From Acidithiobacillus ferridurans (GTDB taxonomy: Bacteria; Pseudomonadota; Gammaproteobacteria; Acidithiobacillales; Acidithiobacillaceae): DNA of 64,000 nt. Positions 40,648-48,710 of this stretch are shown piece after piece. Both the position numbers and the translations under genes were made by a program. Location of the stretch: the NCBI RefSeq assembly GCF_003966655.1, contig NZ_AP018795.1, positions 2,063,501 through 2,127,500 on the forward strand, written 5' to 3'. The notes beneath the pieces were generated by a model that did not search any database, was not told the origin of the DNA, and saw only the letters and a program-made list of their open reading frames with translations. How positions within the stretch are numbered: position 1 is the first letter of the stretch; every line of letters starts with the position of its first letter.

Positions 40648-40669
40648 AAAAAGGGGCCCGAAGGCCCCC
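40648..40669 (-). terminator. Intrinsic terminator of the cytochrome bd operon
   Basis: On the minus strand a 6-bp GGGGCC/GGCCCC stem encloses a UUCG tetraloop and is followed directly by five T. It sits 16 bases after the stop of the 33-residue protein gene, so the operon's 3' end includes that gene. Confidence 0.9.
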
Positions 40670-40684
40670 GTGACGATACCACGT

Positions 40685-40786
40685 TTAGCGGAACCGTTTT
40701 CTGGTGTAAAGGTAAGCAAAACCTGCCAGACTAAAGTAAACGAACGGCAGAAAGAAGATGAAATCTTCCAGATCTACATAATGCAT
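40685..40786 (-). CDS. Tiny membrane peptide (33 aa) at the end of the cyd operon
   Basis: Read directly from the minus strand: starts MHYVDLEDFIFFLPF, then one hydrophobic helix, and ends YLYTRKRFR with a positively charged tail. AAGGAG at 40793-40798 is 6 bases from ATG 40786, an ideal ribosome site. It lies 17 bases after the 67-residue gene and just before a strong terminator. Its size and place match the small accessory subunits of cytochrome bd (CydX in E. coli, CydS in Geobacillus), but the sequence does not obviously resemble CydX. Translation is well supported; function is inference. Confidence 0.65.
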   Translation of the reverse strand: MHYVDLEDFIFFLPFVYFSLAGFAYLYTRKRFR

Positions 40787-40803
40787 AGACATCTCCTTGT
40801 TTC

Positions 40804-41007
40804 CTAATGAGTGGAACCCTGCTTTCGCTGCTGTTCTTCATCCTGTCTGTCAAACATGATAGCACCTGCAGCAGAGATAAGGACAATCATGGTGGTACCC
40901 ACCAGCCAAGCAAAGTACCAGGGGCCGTAGTCACCGGTAATCACCGCCAGAAAAAGGGACAACACCATGACGGCCGCCAACCCGATAAATGTGAGCAAAT
41001 TTTTCAT
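40804..41007 (-). CDS. Small two-helix membrane protein (67 aa) in the cyd operon
   Basis: A 67-residue protein with two transmembrane segments (about residues 4-24 and 32-52) and a charged C-terminus rich in Asp, Glu, Gln and Lys. GAGGAGG just upstream of ATG 41007 is a strong ribosome binding site. It starts 12 bases after the cydB stop. It takes the position of the cydX/ybgE genes in enteric cyd operons but is not clearly homologous. It may be an assembly factor or subunit of the oxidase. Confidence 0.75.
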   Translation of the reverse strand: MKNLLTFIGLAAVMVLSLFLAVITGDYGPWYFAWLVGTTMIVLISAAGAIMFDRQDEEQQRKQGSTH

Positions 41008-41019
41008 GTTCGCCTCCTC

Positions 41020-42153
41020 TTAATAAGCGTGGTCGTCTTGCGTGTCGGGCGCCGCCACCTTACCGCGCATCACCCGGAAACACCAAGTGGTGTAACTGAT
41101 GATGATGGGCAGGAAAATCAGGCCGAAGATGGTCATCCAGACCAGATTGTACTCGCTGCCGGTGCCGTTCCAGACCGTGAGGCTCTGGTCCGGGTTGTCC
41201 GTGGAAGGCATCAGGAAGGGGAACATGGAAGTGCCCACCGCACCGATCACGCCGATCCATGCCACTGCACCCATCCACCAGCCGAGAACGGGCTTGTTGG
41301 CGCGCAGTGCGAGCACACCCAGGACCATGCCAGCCAAACCCAGCAAGGGCACCAGCCAGAGAATGGGGTGGGCGGCATAGTTGGCCATCCACGCCCCGTT
41401 CGCGAGGGCGACCGTCTGGCCGCTGACCGGGTTCGCGGGCATGCCCGGATCACCGCTGATCAGTTGGAAGCCCTTCATGCCGGACACCATGAAGCCACCG
41501 ATAACGAAGATCACCAGCGCCGCAATACCGCCGACGCTGGCGTAATTCCGTGCCCGGTCATACAGCGCACCGCTACCGCGTATCATGAGCATGGTGCCGC
41601 CCTGATAGATGGCCAGGCTCAGCGACAGCACGCCGCAGAGAATCGCAAAAGGATTCAGCAGATACCAGATGAAAGATTCGGTCTGGTAATACTGGCCGTC
41701 CCAGCCGAAGTGAAAGCCGACGCCTTCCAGAATATTCCCCATGGCAGCCCCGTAAACAATCATGGGCAGGGCACCGGAAATGAGAAAGACCCAGTCCCAG
41801 GAATCGCGCCAGCGATGACTGGGCACCTTGGAACGGTATTCAAAGGCGACGGGACGCATGATCATGCTGAACAGCAGGAGAATCATGACGATGTAGAAGA
41901 CCGAAAAAGACGTCGCATAGAGGCTTGGAAAGGCCGCGAAAATCGCGCCACCGCCAAGAATGAACCACACCTGGTTACCATCCCAGTGCGGGCCAACGAT
42001 GTTCAGCGCTTCGCGGCGTTCGCCGTCGGTTTTGCCGACAAAGCGCATCAGAGCGCCAACGCCCATATCCATACCGACCATGATAGCGAGGCCCATCAAC
42101 AGGATTCCCAGAATCAGGAACCAGAATATCTTTAAATATACGTAAGCATCCAT
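41020..42153 (-). CDS. cydB: Cytochrome bd ubiquinol oxidase subunit II
   Basis: The partner subunit of the bd-type terminal oxidase, which reduces O2 to water with quinol. 377 residues with about eight transmembrane helices in the inner membrane. It begins with the typical KIFWFLILGILLMGLAIMVGMDMGVG segment, followed by ERREALNIVGPHWDGNQVWFILGGGAIFAAFPSLYA, both hallmark CydB regions. Normal length. It lies 59 bases downstream of cydA in the same operon. Confidence 0.97.
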   Translation of the reverse strand: MDAYVYLKIFWFLILGILLMGLAIMVGMDMGVGALMRFVGKTDGERREALNIVGPHWDGNQVWFILGGGAIFAAFPSLYATSFSVFYIVMILLLFSMIMRPVAFEYRSKVPSHRWRDSWDWVFLISGALPMIVYGAAMGNILEGVGFHFGWDGQYYQTESFIWYLLNPFAILCGVLSLSLAIYQGGTMLMIRGSGALYDRARNYASVGGIAALVIFVIGGFMVSGMKGFQLISGDPGMPANPVSGQTVALANGAWMANYAAHPILWLVPLLGLAGMVLGVLALRANKPVLGWWMGAVAWIGVIGAVGTSMFPFLMPSTDNPDQSLTVWNGTGSEYNLVWMTIFGLIFLPIIISYTTWCFRVMRGKVAAPDTQDDHAY

Positions 42154-42212
42154 CTTGTGCTCTCCATTCAGTCGGGGGGTAAATCAACCCCCCTTGATTC
42201 ATCACGCTGGCG

Positions 42213-43847
42213 TTACTTGCGATCCATGCTGGGTTTGGCAAACACCGGCTGACCCGCCATGCCGCCACCCGCAGGCGCAGAACCGTGATCATGATGATCA
42301 TCCTGCGGACCCAGACGGGCGTATTTGAACATCAGGTAGAGCTCCGCCGCGATGAAAGAGCTATACAGCAGGGTGAACCCGATAAGCGAGAACACCATGT
42401 AGCCGACGCTGTGGGTGGAGGCGGAGACGAAGGTAGGTAGCCAGCCAAATACCGTCCATGGCTGACGACCATTTTCGGCGGTGATCCAACCGAACTCACA
42501 AGCTACCCAAGGCAAGGGAATACTCCACATCGCCAGTTTCAGCAGGGTGGGGTGTTTCTCGATTTCGTTCTTCAGGCTGAAATAAGCCGCGAAAGCGAAG
42601 AGCACCAGCATGAAGAAGCCTGCAGCGACCATCAGGCGGAAGGCCCAGAACTCCACCCAGACATTGGGGATGGTATCCTTCGCCGTCTTGTCCAGAACGC
42701 TGGGCAGATTGGTGGCGTTGATCTTCTTGAGGTCCTGATCAGGCGCAAACCGCATGGCCAGGAAACCATAACCCATGTCGTTTTCGTACTGCTTGAAGGT
42801 GGCCAGTGCCTGGGTATTGCTGTGATCCAGGTTGTACTCCTTCAGTGCGATCATCGCCTTGATGCCATTGGCAATTTTTGGCTTGGCTTCCTGCTCCAGC
42901 TGGATGATGCCGGGAATGACCGTCGTCTCGGAGTGGGTCAGCAGCGGCGTAAGGATATACGGGATGGAAACCTCGAAGAGATTCTTCTGTTCGCTACGGC
43001 TGGGGATGGCGATGAGGTTCCAGGACGCGGACACCGTGTTGTAATCCGTGTTCCAGATGGCTTCCATGGCCGCCAGCTTGGTGGGTTGTTTCTGGCCATC
43101 AAGGTAGCCCAGGGCGTCACCCAGGGTAATTACGCCGATACTGGAAACCACGCCGAAGAGGGTGGCGATCCGGAAGGAGCGCAACGCCAAATCTTTCCGC
43201 TTGTTGGTCAGCATGTAATAAGCGCTGACGCCCATGACGAACATGGAGCCGGTTACAAAACCCGCGATGGAGGTATGGACAAACTTGGCCTGCGCATCCG
43301 GATTGAAGATCAGGTCGATAAAGCTGGAAAATTGCATCCGCATGGTATTGGGATCAAAGGTGCCGCCCCGCGGGTCCTGCATAAAACCGTTGGCGATGAG
43401 AATCCACAATGCAGAAAGGTTGGATCCAAGAGCCACCAGATAGGTGACCACGAGGTGCGCCTTGCGGCTTATGCGCTCCCAGCCGAAGAACATCACACCG
43501 ACAAAGGTGGATTCCATGAAGAAGGCCATCAGCCCCTCGATGGCCAGCGGGGTACCGAAAATATCGCCCACGAAGTGGGAGTACATGGACCAGTTGGTCC
43601 CGAATTCAAACTCCATGGTCAGGCCGGTAGCGACGCCCAGGGCAAAGTTGATGCCGAAGAGTTTGCCCCAGAACTGCGTCATTTCTTTATATATCTGTTT
43701 GCCGGTGATGACATACACCGTTTCCATGGTGGCCAGAATAAAGGTCATACCCAGGGTGAGTGGTACAAATAAGAAGTGGTAGAGGGCGGTCAGCGCGAAC
43801 TGCAGGCGCGATAGCTCCACCACCGTGGGATTGATCAACATGTCCAT
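42213..43847 (-). CDS. cydA: Cytochrome bd ubiquinol oxidase subunit I
   Basis: Carries haems b558, b595 and d and the quinol site. 544 residues. Key ligands are visible: the N-terminal helix with LTALYHFLFVPLT (His ligand at residue 24), EGLMAFFMES (paired glutamates), KFVHTSIAG (His ligand), FWAFRLMVAAG (Met ligand region) and the ENGRQPW motif. The Q-loop between helices 6 and 7 is long, and includes KQPTKLAAMEA, so it is of the E. coli-like long-Q-loop class. The C-terminus has a His-rich, Gly/Ala tail. It lies 10 bases downstream of the ETHE1-like gene and is controlled by the sigma-54 element upstream of that gene. Confidence 0.97.
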   Translation of the reverse strand: MDMLINPTVVELSRLQFALTALYHFLFVPLTLGMTFILATMETVYVITGKQIYKEMTQFWGKLFGINFALGVATGLTMEFEFGTNWSMYSHFVGDIFGTPLAIEGLMAFFMESTFVGVMFFGWERISRKAHLVVTYLVALGSNLSALWILIANGFMQDPRGGTFDPNTMRMQFSSFIDLIFNPDAQAKFVHTSIAGFVTGSMFVMGVSAYYMLTNKRKDLALRSFRIATLFGVVSSIGVITLGDALGYLDGQKQPTKLAAMEAIWNTDYNTVSASWNLIAIPSRSEQKNLFEVSIPYILTPLLTHSETTVIPGIIQLEQEAKPKIANGIKAMIALKEYNLDHSNTQALATFKQYENDMGYGFLAMRFAPDQDLKKINATNLPSVLDKTAKDTIPNVWVEFWAFRLMVAAGFFMLVLFAFAAYFSLKNEIEKHPTLLKLAMWSIPLPWVACEFGWITAENGRQPWTVFGWLPTFVSASTHSVGYMVFSLIGFTLLYSSFIAAELYLMFKYARLGPQDDHHDHGSAPAGGGMAGQPVFAKPSMDRK

Positions 43848-43857
43848 GAATTACCTC

Positions 43858-44592
43858 CTACAAAGAAGCCGGAATATTCCGACCGGGCATGTAATGGTGC
43901 ACATCTTCCTCCTGTGCCCCTATTTTGTTTACATCACTTTTACGGGTTACTTCTACTGAAGACTTCTCCGGCAGCAAGAGCGCACAACTGCGTAAGAACG
44001 CGCTCTTGCCCCGTTGATTGTTGAACCAGTTGTCCTTGCGGCGGAGTTCCTCGATGCTGGTGAGGCGCCGGCCTTTGCTTTCCAGACCGGGATAGATCAG
44101 GGTTTCCCCAGGGAAACTGAGTAAACTTTGGGTGATGCTGTGATAAAGGGTTTGCGGATCGCTCTGGCTGGTACAGGGTGCCGCGCCGGTGGCCAGCAGA
44201 GTCATCCCGGTGAACAGGCGATCTTCCCACCAATAGGTGACCGCGCAGGGGCTGAGCCCCGGCGTGTGCAGTACCCGCAGACTTTCTTCTCCGAAATAGA
44301 GGACATCACCATGCCGCAGGCGCAGGTCGATGTGCTCATCGGCGATGCTCTCGTGGGCGACGATCCGGGCGCCACTGTGTTCCTTCAATACGGTAGCCGC
44401 GGCGATATGGACGGGTTCATGGTGGGTCTGCAGTATATACCGTAGATCGAGGCCACGCTCGATCATGAACGCCTCCAGCGTGTCGACGTGTGCCGGCATG
44501 GGGTCGATGATGACGGTCTCGCGGGTAACGGGGTCGCCCAGCAGATAGCTCAGGTGGCCGCCCTTGGGGGTGCATAGTTGTCTGAAGATCAT
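43858..44592 (-). CDS. ETHE1-like metallo-beta-lactamase-fold protein with lost metal ligands
   Basis: A 244-residue protein whose beginning (MIFRQLCTPKGGHLSYLLGD) and body clearly follow the persulfide dioxygenase/ETHE1 family. However, the family's metal-binding sites are altered: THxHxDH is THHEPVH (residues 56-62), HTPGHT is HTPGLS (L113), GDTL is GMTL (M130) and YPGHDY is YPGLES (L170). Only the first and last His of the first motif remain. It should not bind iron normally, so a sensor, scaffold or chaperone role is more likely than catalysis. About 50 C-terminal residues are extra. The start is chosen from family alignment, the AGGGACGG ribosome site and the sigma-54 promoter, which rules out the longer frame to 44742. 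First gene of the cyd operon. Confidence 0.8.
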   Translation of the reverse strand: MIFRQLCTPKGGHLSYLLGDPVTRETVIIDPMPAHVDTLEAFMIERGLDLRYILQTHHEPVHIAAATVLKEHSGARIVAHESIADEHIDLRLRHGDVLYFGEESLRVLHTPGLSPCAVTYWWEDRLFTGMTLLATGAAPCTSQSDPQTLYHSITQSLLSFPGETLIYPGLESKGRRLTSIEELRRKDNWFNNQRGKSAFLRSCALLLPEKSSVEVTRKSDVNKIGAQEEDVHHYMPGRNIPASL

Positions 44593-44632
44593 ATCGCCCG
44601 TCCCTGTCGAGTATTTGGACATCAGAGTATCA

Positions 44633-44647
44633 GCAATCTCTGTGCCA
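44633..44647 (-). promoter_or_regulatory. Sigma-54 (-24/-12) promoter of the ETHE1-like/cyd operon
   Basis: The minus strand reads TGGCACAGAGATTGC, a perfect match to the TGGCAC-N5-TTGC consensus. Transcription would start near 44621, leaving about 30 bases of leader with a ribosome binding site before the ATG at 44592. The divergent neighbour encodes a sigma-54 activator, which strongly supports function. Confidence 0.85.
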
Positions 44648-44652
44648 TTATT

Positions 44653-44671
44653 TGATAATAGTCTGTTATCA
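44653..44671. promoter_or_regulatory. Palindrome TGATAA-N7-TTATCA upstream of the sigma-54 promoter
   Basis: A perfect 6+6 inverted repeat with a 7-base spacer, about 30 to 50 bases upstream of the predicted start site. It is close to the -24 box for an activator site, so it could also be an architectural-protein or repressor site. Confidence 0.35.
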
Positions 44672-44698
44672 TCGCATCCTTTGAAAGAATAAGGATAA

Positions 44699-44710
44699 AC
44701 AGGCCGCTGT
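44699..44710. promoter_or_regulatory. Palindrome ACAG-GCCG-CTGT, candidate activator site
   Basis: A perfect 4+4 inverted repeat with a 4-base centre, at about -78 to -89 from the predicted sigma-54 start. That distance suits an enhancer-type activator binding site. A short palindrome can occur by chance, so confidence is low. Confidence 0.3.
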
Positions 44711-44789
44711 ATTTTATTTATAGGGCTGTTCATGTGCTGCACCGTCGCTGTCGTGCCCTGAATCTCCGCGCAGGTGCCAAAAATGGCAG

Positions 44790-44816
44790 TTGCGGATTGG
44801 CAGGCGCTGTTATAAT
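44790..44816 (+). promoter_or_regulatory. Candidate promoter of the sigma-54 activator gene
   Basis: A perfect -10 TATAAT (44811-44816) with TTGCGG (44790-44795) 15 bases upstream, slightly short spacing. It lies 80 bases before the activator start codon and points away from the cyd operon. Confidence 0.45.
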
Positions 44817-44896
44817 TGACATGCGCGTGGTGAGGAGTGAGGATGTGCCCGTTGCACCGATCGCGGGTCCGTGTGCGGGGCGTGTGGAGGAGGGAT

Positions 44897-46252
44897 ATGA
44901 CGGATTTGCTCAGGCAGTTGCGGGCGGAAATGACATCGTTGCTGGATTGTTTCAGCGCTCCGGCTGTGCTGCTGTGTGCAGATTACTCCGTCCTCGCCGC
45001 CAACCAGGCTTATCGGCGGGTCTTCGGCGACGGCAAGCCCCTGCAGGGGCGGCGCTGTTACGAAATCATGGAGGACGCCGGCTACTCCTGTCGTCAGGGA
45101 GGCAATCATTGCCCCCTCGACGCCTGCCAAAGCTCCGGTACCGGCCAGCATGTGGTGCATAGCAATACCTCCGGAAACGCACAGATCGATCTCTACCCTA
45201 TCCGTAATGATAGCGCTAAAGTCGTCTACTTTCTTGAACTGCTGACCCTCGTGCCGCAATCGACGGCGCTGCCTGCCCCCGCCATGGTCGGCAACTCTCC
45301 CGCCTGGCGGGACGTGGCCAGGCTTATCCGCCGGGCGGCGCCCAGTGATGCCGCCGTATTGCTGCTCGGCGAGTCCGGTACGGGTAAGGAACTGGCCGCT
45401 GCGGCCGTACATCAGGCTAGTCACTGTCGGAACGGGCCTTTCGTAGCGGTGGATTGTTCCGGCTTGTCCGAAACCCTTTTTGAGAGCGAGCTCTTCGGTC
45501 ATGAAAAAGGGGCATTTACGGGCGCGCATTCGCGCAAAACCGGTCTGGTGGAGGCGGCCGATGGGGGCACTCTTTTTCTCGACGAAGTCGGTGATATTCC
45601 GCTCAGTCTACAGGTGAAACTCCTGCGCCTGCTGGAAACGGGACATTTCCGGCGGGTAGGGGGCGTGGAGCCGATTCGTTCGCAGTTCCGCCTGGTCTCG
45701 GCTACTCACCGCCCGCTTGAAAAAATGGTCGCGGAGGAGCGCTTCCGGCAGGATTTGTATTACCGTCTGAATACATTTCCTGTCACGCTGCCCGCGTTGC
45801 GGGAGCGCCTGGAGGATGTGCCCTTGCTGGCGGAAGTCATCCTGCAGCGGCTGCCGGTGGCCAGGGGGCTGCACCTTCACGCCGATACGCTGGAACTGCT
45901 GCGCCGTTATAACTACCCCGGCAACATTCGTGAACTGCGCAACATTCTCGAGCGTGCGGCGCTACTGGCCGACGATGTCTGGATTCTTCCGGAACACCTG
46001 CCTGCAAACCTTCAGCATCTGCCAGTGCAGGAATCCGGCCCGGCTCCGTCTTTGACGGGACGGCAGCCCATACCCGGTGTTGGCGAAATCATTCCATTGG
46101 CGGATCTGGAAGCACAATACCTGCGCTGGGCGCGGGGAAATTACGGTGGCGATCGCCGCGGCCTGGCGCAGCGCCTGGGGGTAAGCGAGCGAACCTTGTA
46201 CCGCAAGCTGGACGCACTGAGGAGTAATACCGGGCATGCCATTGAGTCCTGA
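44897..46252 (+). CDS. Sigma-54-dependent transcriptional activator with Cys-containing PAS-like sensor
   Basis: 451 residues. The N-terminal 120 residues look like a PAS domain ([20 protein letters not shown]) with four cysteines in the pattern C-x10-C-x6-C-x4-C (residues 54, 65, 72, 77: CYE...C...CPLDAC), candidate thiol or metal sensor. The AAA+ domain follows with GESGTGKE (Walker A), [16 protein letters not shown] (the GAFTGA sigma-54 contact), [11 protein letters not shown] (Walker B) and arginine-finger region. The C-terminus is a Fis-type helix-turn-helix ([20 protein letters not shown]). No receiver domain, so it senses directly. GGAGGAGGG precedes ATG 44897. It is divergent from the cyd operon, whose sigma-54 promoter it probably activates. 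Confidence 0.92.
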
Positions 46253-46892
46253 CATCTGGCCGGAGGGTCTGTTGACCCGCCCCGGTTGCCAAGTGGGAGC
46301 GCCTTGCATTGTGCTCCTGCACGGTCTCGGTGCCTCCATGGAAGACCTCGCCGGGGTGGCGGATATGGTGGACCCGGAGAGTCGGTTCCGCTGGCTGTTT
46401 CCTAATGCGCCGGTGCGCCCGGTGCGCGTCAACGGGAACCGGCCGATGCGGGCCTGGTATGACGTTTATGGTTTCGGCGGGCAGTCTGCCGAAGACGCCG
46501 AGGGATTACAGGACATGGCGTCGCGGCTCGGCGCACTGCTGGATCACGAGGCTGGCAGCGCACCGTCCGTCATTCTGGGTGGATTCTCCCAGGGGGGCGC
46601 CATGTCGCTCTACACCGCGCTACATGCAGGCCATGCGGCCCGCGCGGTGCTGGCCCTCAGTGCCTACCTGCCGTTGCGTGCCCGCCTGCCGGCGGCTACG
46701 CCCGAGTCGCCACCGGTATTCTGGGCGCACGGGCAGCAAGATGGCGTCCTGCCTATTTCCTATATGGAGATCGCCCGGCAGCTACTGACCGCATCGGGCT
46801 ATGCGGTCAGTACCCACCGCTACCCCATGGGCCACACCCTTTGTGAAGACGAACTGCTGGATTTGCGTAACTTTCTGTATACCCTCGATTAA
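46236..46892 (+). CDS. Alpha/beta hydrolase of the carboxylesterase/phospholipase family
   Basis: A 218-residue serine esterase of the YpfH/carboxylesterase type. The nucleophile elbow is GGFSQGGAMSL, the oxyanion region is VLLHGLGASMEDLAG, the acid is in WAHGQQDGVLP and the catalytic His in PMGHTLCEDEL. Cytosolic, no signal peptide. Its start overlaps the activator gene by 17 bases, so it may be co-translated. Its stop overlaps the convergent lpd-like gene. The natural substrate is unknown. Confidence 0.88.
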   Translation: MPLSPDIWPEGLLTRPGCQVGAPCIVLLHGLGASMEDLAGVADMVDPESRFRWLFPNAPVRPVRVNGNRPMRAWYDVYGFGGQSAEDAEGLQDMASRLGALLDHEAGSAPSVILGGFSQGGAMSLYTALHAGHAARAVLALSAYLPLRARLPAATPESPPVFWAHGQQDGVLPISYMEIARQLLTASGYAVSTHRYPMGHTLCEDELLDLRNFLYTLD

Positions 46893-48307
46893 TCAGAGGG
46901 CCCAAAAATCTGTTCTTCGAGACCCCAACGCGCCGCCAGTGTTTCGGTGGCATTTACCAGTTCTTCTGCGCGGGAAGGGTGGTTGGTGCGAGTTTCGACG
47001 ATCCTGCGCAGCATCCCGTCGTGGTCGCCGCCGTTGGCAAGCAAATGAATCAATTCGCCGGCATCCCGACCGACTATTTCACCGCCAAGCAGTTCGCCGC
47101 TATCCATATCAGCCAGAAGGCGGACAAAGCCAACGCTGTCGTCCTGCCCCAGTGCGCGCGGTGAAGTCTCAAAAGCCGCAAAACCGACCGCGGGTTCAAA
47201 ACCTGCATCCTCGGCCGCTTCGTCATCCATACCGATACGCGCGAGCTCCACTGCGGAATATACCAGTTCCGGCACCCAGAGCGGGTCGCGTTCCTGCTTT
47301 TCGGCGCTGAGCAGGTTGTGGATGACTATCCGAGCGTCGTTGAGGGCCTGGTTGGCATTCATGATCGGTCCGACAGCGTCGCCAATGGCATAGATGCCAG
47401 CCTCTCCGGTCTCCAGGGTGGCGTCAGTCTGCACAAATCCATGATCGTCCAGGGTGATACGGGTGTTTTCCAGACCCAATCCTTCGGTGTAGGCATGACG
47501 TCCGGTGGCGAGCAGTACCCAATCGCCATGGACCGACTTCCCCTGGTCGTCGAAGACCGTTACGCCCTCGGTCGTCGTCTCCATGCGGTGGATCCTGAAC
47601 CCGGACTGGGGATGGATACCGAGTCCGGCCAGCGCTGCATGGAGTGTATCCTTAGCCTGCGGCGAATACCGGGTATGGGCGAGAGGCGTGGCGTGCACCA
47701 GCCATTCCACCTGTTTGCCGAGCTGAGTAAAAATATACGCGAACTCGGTGCCGATAACCCCTCCACCCACCAGGATCACCCGGTCTCCGTGCGGGACGCC
47801 GTTGTCATAGAGCATGTCGCTGGTCAGTACTTTGCCGGCTGCCGGAACGATCCCCCGGGGCAAGGATGGCGTCGATCCGGTGGCGATGATGCTGGTTTCC
47901 GTATGGATTTCCACCACTCCGCCGACCCCTTCAACGGCGATGCGCCGGGCATCCAGGAAGCTGCCCGTGCCATCGTAAAGATGTATCCCGAGGCGCTTGA
48001 GGTAGTCCAGATAGCTGCCACGGACAGTCTCGACCACATCGTGCTGATGCTGCCAGGCTAGCGCCATATTTCCCCTCAGCGCCAGACCCACCACCCCCCG
48101 CTTTTGGAAATGCCGACTTTGCTCTATCCATTTTGCCGTTTCATGCCAGTCCTTTTTAGGAACACAGCCCCGATTGAGACAGGTTCCTCCCCAGGTCTTT
48201 CTCTCAATAATCGCGGTTCTTTTACCGCGCAGAGCCGCCAGAACTGCCGCACGATAACCGCCGGGGCCACTGCCGATAATGGTGACATCATAGTTGTCCA
48301 TACTCAT
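46889..48307 (-). CDS. Dihydrolipoamide dehydrogenase-like flavoprotein disulfide reductase
   Basis: 472 residues of the pyridine nucleotide-disulfide reductase family. It has the FAD motif IIGSGPGGYRAAVLAA, the redox-active disulfide in GGTCLNRGCVPKKDW, the NAD motif VILVGGGVIGTEFAYIF, the second FAD segment IYAIGDAVG and the C-terminal HPSRAEEL, giving the His-Glu pair. All catalytic parts are present, so activity as lipoamide dehydrogenase is plausible, possibly as the L-protein for the glycine cleavage genes at 57.6-61.9 kb. It is isolated from those genes. AGGA precedes the ATG at 48307. Exact substrate is uncertain. Confidence 0.8.
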   Translation of the reverse strand: MSMDNYDVTIIGSGPGGYRAAVLAALRGKRTAIIERKTWGGTCLNRGCVPKKDWHETAKWIEQSRHFQKRGVVGLALRGNMALAWQHQHDVVETVRGSYLDYLKRLGIHLYDGTGSFLDARRIAVEGVGGVVEIHTETSIIATGSTPSLPRGIVPAAGKVLTSDMLYDNGVPHGDRVILVGGGVIGTEFAYIFTQLGKQVEWLVHATPLAHTRYSPQAKDTLHAALAGLGIHPQSGFRIHRMETTTEGVTVFDDQGKSVHGDWVLLATGRHAYTEGLGLENTRITLDDHGFVQTDATLETGEAGIYAIGDAVGPIMNANQALNDARIVIHNLLSAEKQERDPLWVPELVYSAVELARIGMDDEAAEDAGFEPAVGFAAFETSPRALGQDDSVGFVRLLADMDSGELLGGEIVGRDAGELIHLLANGGDHDGMLRRIVETRTNHPSRAEELVNATETLAARWGLEEQIFGPSD

Positions 48308-48710
48308 AACACTTTCCTAGTCAATGTAATAGAAGTCATTCGTAAAGTTATTGATCATGTTGACGGTCGCGCGCTATTGCGTCGGTTATTCAATTCCATG
48401 GCGGAGCGAGCGCAGGTTGATGAATTATTTTGTTGTTTATCAGCGACTGTTACCCCCTAGCTATTTTATGGTCGAAAGGCATCATTTATAGAACTCGTCT
48501 ATGGGTGTCTGGCGATACTATAATACTTTCAGTGCGCTATGAAGTATGTCTTGAATCCGTGCGCGAGAGATGCGATACGGTGCGGTGGATTCTCTGGTCA
48601 TCTTCCCGATGACGTCGGGCACAAGCGACAAAAACAAGCCCCAAGAAATAATTAAAGTTGAAAAATTAGTATGTTGCAACTGTGGCATAGGTATTGCTTC
48701 CTGTTCTGTC
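48308..48710. other. Gene-free AT-richer region between lpd-like gene and opgG
   Basis: About 400 bases with noticeably lower GC than the flanks and no supported gene. It should contain the divergent promoters of the flavoprotein and opgG. A TATAAT at 48519-48524 on the plus strand is a candidate -10 but has no good -35. No tRNA, terminator or clear repeat is seen. Short frames inside it have no ribosome site. Confidence 0.5.

Follow-up and report, generated by a model that had tools for sequence, protein, structure and literature searches.

A putative FisR-type sulfane-sulfur activator and a conserved pseudo-dioxygenase at the cytochrome bd operon of Acidithiobacillaceae

A stretch of 64,000 nucleotides from Acidithiobacillus ferridurans (contig NZ_AP018795.1, positions 2,063,501 to 2,127,500; hereafter the window), belonging to a single-contig genome of 2,921,399 bases, carries a cytochrome bd operon that starts with a gene for an ETHE1-like protein and lies divergent from a gene for a sigma54-dependent activator. 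On balance, we consider it probable that a FisR-type activator sensing sulfane sulfur controls quinol oxidases in these bacteria, and that the ETHE1-like protein, a relative of persulfide dioxygenases (PDO) without their iron site, serves as a conserved non-catalytic accessory, called hereafter pseudo-dioxygenase. What is added here is the combination of fragments already published, evidence that the set is conserved, the finding of a pseudo-enzyme at the head of two quinol-oxidase operon types, and the recurrence elsewhere of activator-cydAB pairing. The elements of the locus are listed below (G and L numbers are our handles for genomes and loci).

44897-46252, + strand: sigma54 activator gene with PAS-like sensor, AAA+ and Fis-type helix-turn-helix (HTH) domains; start codon placed by conservation; probable orthologue of AFE_0957
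45184-45248, - strand: counterpart, inside the activator gene, of the published second, sigma70 cyd promoter (PMC5506826), one base different, compared by eye
45056-45127, + strand: four-cysteine cluster C-x10-C-x6-C-x4-C of the sensor domain (C54, C65, C72, C77), invariant in 21 of 21 family sequences
44808-44821, no strand, read on the + strand: conserved block TGTTATAATTGACA, overlapping a half palindrome of the upstream activating kind
44775-44788, no strand: palindrome TGCCAAAAATGGCA (TGYCA-N4-TGRCA), a candidate upstream activating site lying 127 bp away from the -24/-12 element
44632-44647, - strand: -24/-12 (sigma54) promoter TGGCACAGAGATTGCT, read as TGGCACAGAGATTGC(T)
43858-44592, - strand: ETHE1/persulfide-dioxygenase-like protein without iron site, 244 aa; probable orthologue of AFE_0956
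42213-43847, - strand: cydA, cytochrome bd subunit I (PF01654, 6.7e-163)
41020-42153, - strand: cydB, cytochrome bd subunit II (PF02322; TIGR00203 over cut-off)
40804-41007, - strand: 67-aa membrane protein, CydX/YbgT-like by a weak match below curated Pfam and NCBIfam cut-offs
40685-40792, - strand: 35-aa hydrophobic protein, final gene of the operon, no Pfam or NCBIfam family
40652-40669, - strand: terminator-like hairpin with a T run at the operon end (6 such sites in the window, 4.3 expected by chance)

An original prediction, made from the letters of the window, had proposed a -24/-12 promoter ahead of an operon of an altered ETHE1-like gene, cydA, cydB and two small membrane proteins, with a divergent GAFTGA activator bearing four cysteines, and all of these were recovered. 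The promoter has a GG-N10-GC core and the TGGCAY-N5-TTGC consensus; TGGCAYRNNNNTTGCW occurs twice in the window, versus 0.09 expected by shuffling, and the genome encodes sigma54 (PF04552, E 1.9e-69). Behind it, on the - strand, follow the five genes in the order given above, with both subunits of a cytochrome bd oxidase, CydA and CydB, confirmed by Pfam and NCBIfam. The genes for the 67-aa and 35-aa proteins were present 3' of cydB in six loci (L031, L032, L033, L036, L154 and L158). Translation of the ETHE1-like protein very probably starts at ATG 44592 (MIFRQLC), which was preferred because relatives have the same start; an alternative upstream ATG, at 44623, coincides with the expected transcription start. 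The activator combines a sensor domain, without receiver, with an AAA+ domain containing GAFTGA (45509-45526) and a Fis-type HTH. Its N-terminus gave a weak PAS_4 match, and the HTH matched PF02954 below cut-off.

The same operon, with the same -24/-12 sequence and the same divergent activator, is known in the close relative A. ferrooxidans. According to the passages of Moinier 2017 available to us (PMC5506826; the other papers are likewise cited from available passages), the cyd operon whose first gene is AFE_0956 has a sigma54-dependent promoter, mapped by 5' rapid amplification of cDNA ends (5' RACE) to this element, and AFE_0957 is its likely activator. The predicted sigma54 control with a divergent activator is therefore backed by this published experiment as well as by conservation, and that the FisR-type activator would drive the operon through sigma54 is well supported. 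Since such control is already in print, no new claim is made on this point for this operon.

A search of the order found a cydA at least 83% identical in 22 Acidithiobacillaceae genomes, and in 21 of these the activator, the ETHE-like gene and cydA were on one contig; the set is thus conserved across the family, and the refuting outcome named in the original prediction, its confinement to a single genome, did not arise. In the 22nd genome, G012, cydA is on a separate contig and the locus is cut by contig ends, while a contig end interrupts the activator of G007. An ETHE-like match of some kind was obtained in 27 of 29 family genomes. Three genomes (G019, G023 and G024) have neither cydA nor activator, and G024 has an intact-looking dioxygenase. 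In three others (G002, G003 and G004) the activator is present and cydA absent; the adjoining -24/-12 element and ETHE-like gene are gone and thiC is in their place (ThiC confirmed for G003), the palindrome being retained in G003 and G004 and absent in G002. As a side observation, the replacement of cydAB by thiC in these genomes (L141-L143) and in G014 (L195), where thiC directly follows the retained dead-dioxygenase gene, looks like stages of a deletion. The full set was also present in G054, of the sister family, with a highly degenerate ETHE-like protein (L099).

Identical upstream regions being counted once, the family provided 23 distinct ones. All 23 contain the -24/-12 element, 46-55 bases 5' of the conserved MIFRQ start, and all 23 contain the TGYCA-N4-TGRCA palindrome, versus 0.04 expected by single-base shuffling; these regions are related, so that the count reflects conservation, not 23 independent events. 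Within the window alone the palindrome was not above chance, and the genome-wide count of -24/-12 sites (11, versus 5 for the reversed pattern) was too weak for defining a regulon. The conserved block at 44808-44821, which is like TGYTATAATTGRCA toward the activator, is probably, as judged by eye, the extended -10 (TGnTATAAT) of the activator's own promoter; a sigma70 scan listed no promoter at this block. A palindrome 5' of a true PDO (G000:C1:1115923), with no good -24/-12 beside it, was dismissed as chance.

The ETHE1-like protein has a metallo-beta-lactamase fold, as assigned by Pfam and NCBIfam, and its nearest solved relatives are ETHE1-type persulfide dioxygenases (4ysb, 9rhq and 4chl), the similarity to which extends over some 190 residues (E values from 1.8e-36 to 1.8e-22). 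Unlike these enzymes, it lacks two of the three iron ligands and most residues of the glutathione site, and it has gained a cysteine. The extent of this loss was examined in 22 copies lying beside the activator, by comparison with two intact dioxygenases (L026 and L027). Twenty of the copies adjoin cydA; for the other two (L006 of G012 and L007 of G014) the contig holds no cydA. The first His of the mono-iron site (His, His, Asp) was present in all 22 and is the sole ligand left in the window copy, whereas the second His was found in two copies and the Asp in none. Other metal-site positions differ between genera. Excluded from the cyd-linked set were L025 (ETHE gene split), L019/L028 and L024/L029/L030; in alignment A2, L021 and L023 are truncated C-terminally, and L003, one of the 22 copies, lies outside it.

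The new cysteine occupies position 116, three residues past the place of the second His, in 22 of 22 copies, and is absent from L026 and L027. The pseudo-dioxygenase is clearly under purifying selection, with ratios of nonsynonymous to synonymous substitution rates (dN/dS) of 0.085-0.181 in nine pairs, several of them with dS near saturation. An AlphaFold2 model from a 7-row alignment was of low confidence (mean predicted local distance difference test score 47.8) and was not used. A probable counterpart in A. caldus, A5904_1112, has two metal-site His left and showed no sulfur dioxygenase (SDO) activity from pH 3 to 10; all that the passages of Wu 2017 (PMC5584763) say on its context is that it is not beside sulfur genes. 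It resembles the cyd-linked protein of G017 (243 aa and 27.0 kDa, versus 243 aa, 27.09 kDa and the motif THHDETH), although the computed isoelectric point differs (8.3 versus 7.09); size and motif are the basis of the match.

The activator resembles FisR. The first three of its sensor cysteines (C54, C65 and C72) occur also in activator relatives outside the family, including one of Cupriavidus metallidurans (L198), and the fourth in just some of them. The corresponding cysteines of C. pinatubonensis FisR would be C53, C64 and C71. The FisR-PDO-SQR regulons of C. pinatubonensis and Acinetobacter baumannii (SQR, sulfide quinone reductase) share with the window the activator architecture and a divergent sigma54 target operon, and, in the case of C. 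pinatubonensis, probably three cysteines at the spacing just mentioned. They target active PDO and SQR, whereas the target here is a quinol oxidase with a dead dioxygenase. A review giving no residue numbers (PMC9774590) describes the sensing of reactive sulfur by C. pinatubonensis FisR through three conserved cysteines.

The sensor profile matched 69 of the 369 genomes searched in the class, a count that includes the window genome and its family. Forty activator-like stretches, mostly the best-scoring of a longer set of matches, were inspected, of which 38 lie outside the family. In several loci the relatives adjoin sulfide-oxidising genes: L102, L121 and L127 are divergent from intact PDO genes, and L103 and L112 adjoin proteins whose best NCBIfam match, below cut-off, is type III SQR, with more such cases by eye. 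The C. metallidurans relative, 49.4% identical, is divergent from a dioxygenase with the motif HVHADH, and in L097 a degenerate ETHE-like gene followed by genes for Tll0287-like and SQR-like proteins (by eye) lies behind a strong -24/-12. Respiration tuned to sulfane sulfur, sulfide, nitric oxide (NO) or redox stress had been suggested in the original prediction; the sulfane-sulfur part gained indirect support from these neighbourhoods and from the three-cysteine pattern, and sulfane sulfur is likely the signal of the activator. A further activator with a sensor of this family, more distantly related, is encoded elsewhere in the window genome (G000:C1:554255-554668, L136), divergent from a DsrE-like gene.

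Pairing of such an activator with cydAB recurs outside the family. A cydA of this kind was divergent from the activator in 5 of the 38 stretches (L098, L099, L101, L115 and L132), versus about 0.12 pairs expected at an assumed rate of one cydA per 3 Mb; in L132, other reading frames and a DUF302 gene intervene, and L102 and L106 have merely a distant cydA (29-32% identical). The -24/-12 elements were scored with weights that we chose from the consensus. Scores of 19.7-20.9, reached by none of 200 shuffles, were obtained for L098, L099 and L101, and 18.9 (P 0.03) for L132. The strict palindrome was present in L099 and L132. A quickly built activator tree with many open forks grouped the family activators with full support. 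Two loci from different families, L101 and L115, apparently encode a small hydrophobic protein (by eye) in the interval that separates the -24/-12 site from cydA. The ETHE-like protein 3' of cydAB in L115 was not counted as dead, its iron triad His/His/Asp being kept (by eye).

A second oxidase is headed by the same kind of gene. Thirty cyoA places out of a longer set of matches were obtained as loci and compared. Eight operons belong to the closest cyo type, and in 7 of them an ETHE-like gene, paralogous and degenerate, lies directly 5' of cyoA (for L150, CyoA and CyoB matched best the cytochrome o ubiquinol oxidase models, below curated cut-offs). All seven have a -24/-12-like element 49-56 bases 5' of the ETHE-like ATG, with scores of 14.9-19.7 out of 20.9, that of L160 being weak, and all seven copies carry C116 (by eye). 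The strict palindrome was found in 6 of these 7 operons, and the remaining 23 cyo loci had none (Fisher P 1.2e-5, indicative since loci are related). These 23, comprising 22 of a more distant type and L165, had no ETHE-like gene either in the stretch examined. The window genome's own cyo locus (L175) is of a type without the ETHE-like gene, and cyo of A. ferrooxidans is reported as sigma70-dependent (PMC5506826). A third ETHE-like group (L147 and L151, motif CIHLDH), with no palindrome and no constant promoter, was left out.

These results can be assembled into a working scheme. The divergent gene would produce a FisR-type enhancer-binding protein that attaches, at TGYCA-N4-TGRCA palindromes, to the DNA between the two transcription units; we infer that the palindrome is its site, as we infer every role given here to the pseudo-dioxygenase. 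Reactive sulfane sulfur (persulfide or polysulfide) would modify the sensor cysteines, and the activator would then drive sigma54 RNA polymerase at the -24/-12 element, yielding a transcript pseudo-dioxygenase-cydA-cydB-cydX-orf35 and hence a sulfide-tolerant quinol oxidase during the oxidation of sulfur compounds. Because the palindrome and a -24/-12-like element also precede the pseudo-dioxygenase-headed cyo operons of several relatives, one activator may serve two quinol oxidases, bd and cyo. The likeliest task of the pseudo-dioxygenase would be to bind or carry sulfane-sulfur species through C116, which could feed back on the activator or protect the oxidase. Only tentatively do we go further and propose the dead dioxygenase as a dedicated sulfane-sulfur partner of bd and cyo under one FisR-type activator, C116 reporting or buffering persulfide and thereby adjusting oxidase expression or shielding the enzyme, with the FisR-type/cydAB wiring recurring in other Gammaproteobacteria.

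A number of observations weigh against this scheme. The published sulfide response of A. baumannii is still mediated by a FisR without the Cupriavidus cysteines, according to the passages available, so that cysteines alone do not define the signal. Outside the family, the -24/-12 element is weak in L115 (score 16.7, P 0.07) and L198, no strict palindrome is present in L098, L101, L115, L102, L097 and L198 (a variant with N3 is found in L115 and L198), the cydAB-linked activators are not all joined in the activator tree, and the sister-family genome G200 combines the presence of a cydA with the lack of any close activator. Within the family, the activator is kept without cydAB in G002-G004, where it must therefore be a relic or act on targets elsewhere. 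G014 has no cydA either; it retains the activator and the pseudo-dioxygenase gene, and by eye thiC follows. In the G026 assembly, two frames share the activator sequence (L020). C116 is missing in the degenerate copies L099 and L097 (by eye); it is therefore a feature of the Acidithiobacillaceae, and the odds of the dedicated-partner proposal are lowered. The residues cited as glutathione-binding in active enzymes are mostly lost from the pseudo-dioxygenase (by eye), which speaks against a role as carrier of glutathione persulfide. As for the signal, oxygen, NO or the general redox state might instead be sensed through a metal or Fe-S site formed by the four cysteines, the sulfur link merely reflecting lifestyle: all four are invariant in the family and could bind metal, cytochrome bd is a classic low-oxygen and NO enzyme, and CydA and CydB rose in A. 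ferrooxidans when it grew aerobically on hydrogen, which makes it probable that sulfur is not the sole input. However, relatives lying by PDO or SQR-like genes share the first three cysteines more than the fourth, and we regard such a sensor as unlikely.

The nature of the first gene can also be read differently. Strong similarity to PDOs, the universal first His and purifying selection would suit an enzyme with another metal site or substrate; yet the Asp is lost from all 22 copies and the second His from 20, the remaining metal-site places vary between genera, and the probable A. caldus counterpart had no SDO activity over the pH range assayed (PMC5584763), which makes a surviving enzyme quite unlikely. 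Were the gene only carried along passively in the operon, as a dioxygenase copy in decay, the drift of metal-site residues between genera would be explained, as would the copy of G001 (L025), split over two frames in the assembly, and the shortened, highly diverged copy of sister-family L099. This we hold highly improbable in view of the low dN/dS, of the new cysteine in every copy, and of the place of the gene, which precedes cydA in 21 of the 22 genomes (contig ends cut the remaining one) and has a second copy ahead of cyo. It is very unlikely, finally, that control is mainly exerted by RegB/RegA and sigma70, as published, with a minor sigma54 part: RegA does bind the cyd region of A. ferrooxidans, where a sigma70 promoter was also found (PMC5506826), but across four genera no intergenic element is, by eye, as well conserved as the -24/-12 element and the palindrome. 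Control of quinol oxidases by a FisR-type activator, with the pseudo-dioxygenase as accessory, thus remains our preferred reading.

Cytochrome bd is sulfide-resistant, and cydAB is raised by sulfide in some bacteria. In A. baumannii sulfide raises cydAB, the regulator of that rise not being named in the passages available, and in A. ferrooxidans the cydAB transcript is higher on sulfur than on iron (Quatrini 2009, PMC2754497). If true, a FisR-type activator wired to cydAB in sulfur oxidisers would provide a regulator for sulfide-raised cydAB, and a pseudo-enzyme retained at the head of both bd and cyo operons would represent a respiratory accessory protein of a new type. In these acid-loving sulfur oxidisers, which serve in bioleaching, a regulator apparently from the reactive-sulfur-sensing family, together with a conserved iron-less dioxygenase ahead of the oxidase, points to a coupling of respiration with sulfur stress.

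No description of this exact set was known to the original prediction. This held in part: the sigma54 promoter and its activator were already in print for A. ferrooxidans, while none of the literature searched (titles, starts of abstracts and passages) combines a dead PDO, a FisR-type activator and cydAB. Within that literature, AFE_0956 and AFE_0957 were met in a single paper. Moinier 2017 (PMC5506826) focuses on RegA, and its available text does not contain 'lactamase', 'persulfide' or 'sulfane', nor does it discuss the cysteines or other species. The main text of a 2025 sigma-factor survey of Acidithiobacillia is without 'cyd', 'cytochrome' and 'Fis', and the available text of a 2021 class-wide study (PMC8528912) without 'lactamase' and 'ETHE1', though the gene may appear in its oxidase-neighbourhood figure.

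Two features of the neighbourhood may be added. A lipoamide-dehydrogenase/MerA-like protein is encoded at 46889-48307 (- strand) of the window and adjoins the activator and esterase genes in family loci that are sufficiently long; by eye, a similar protein is encoded near cydA in G200, the genome with no close activator. The second perfect -24/-12-like site of the window, TGGCATAGGTATTGCT (48683-48698, + strand), lies 12 bases 5' of ATG 48711 of an MdoG/OpgG glucan-biosynthesis gene.

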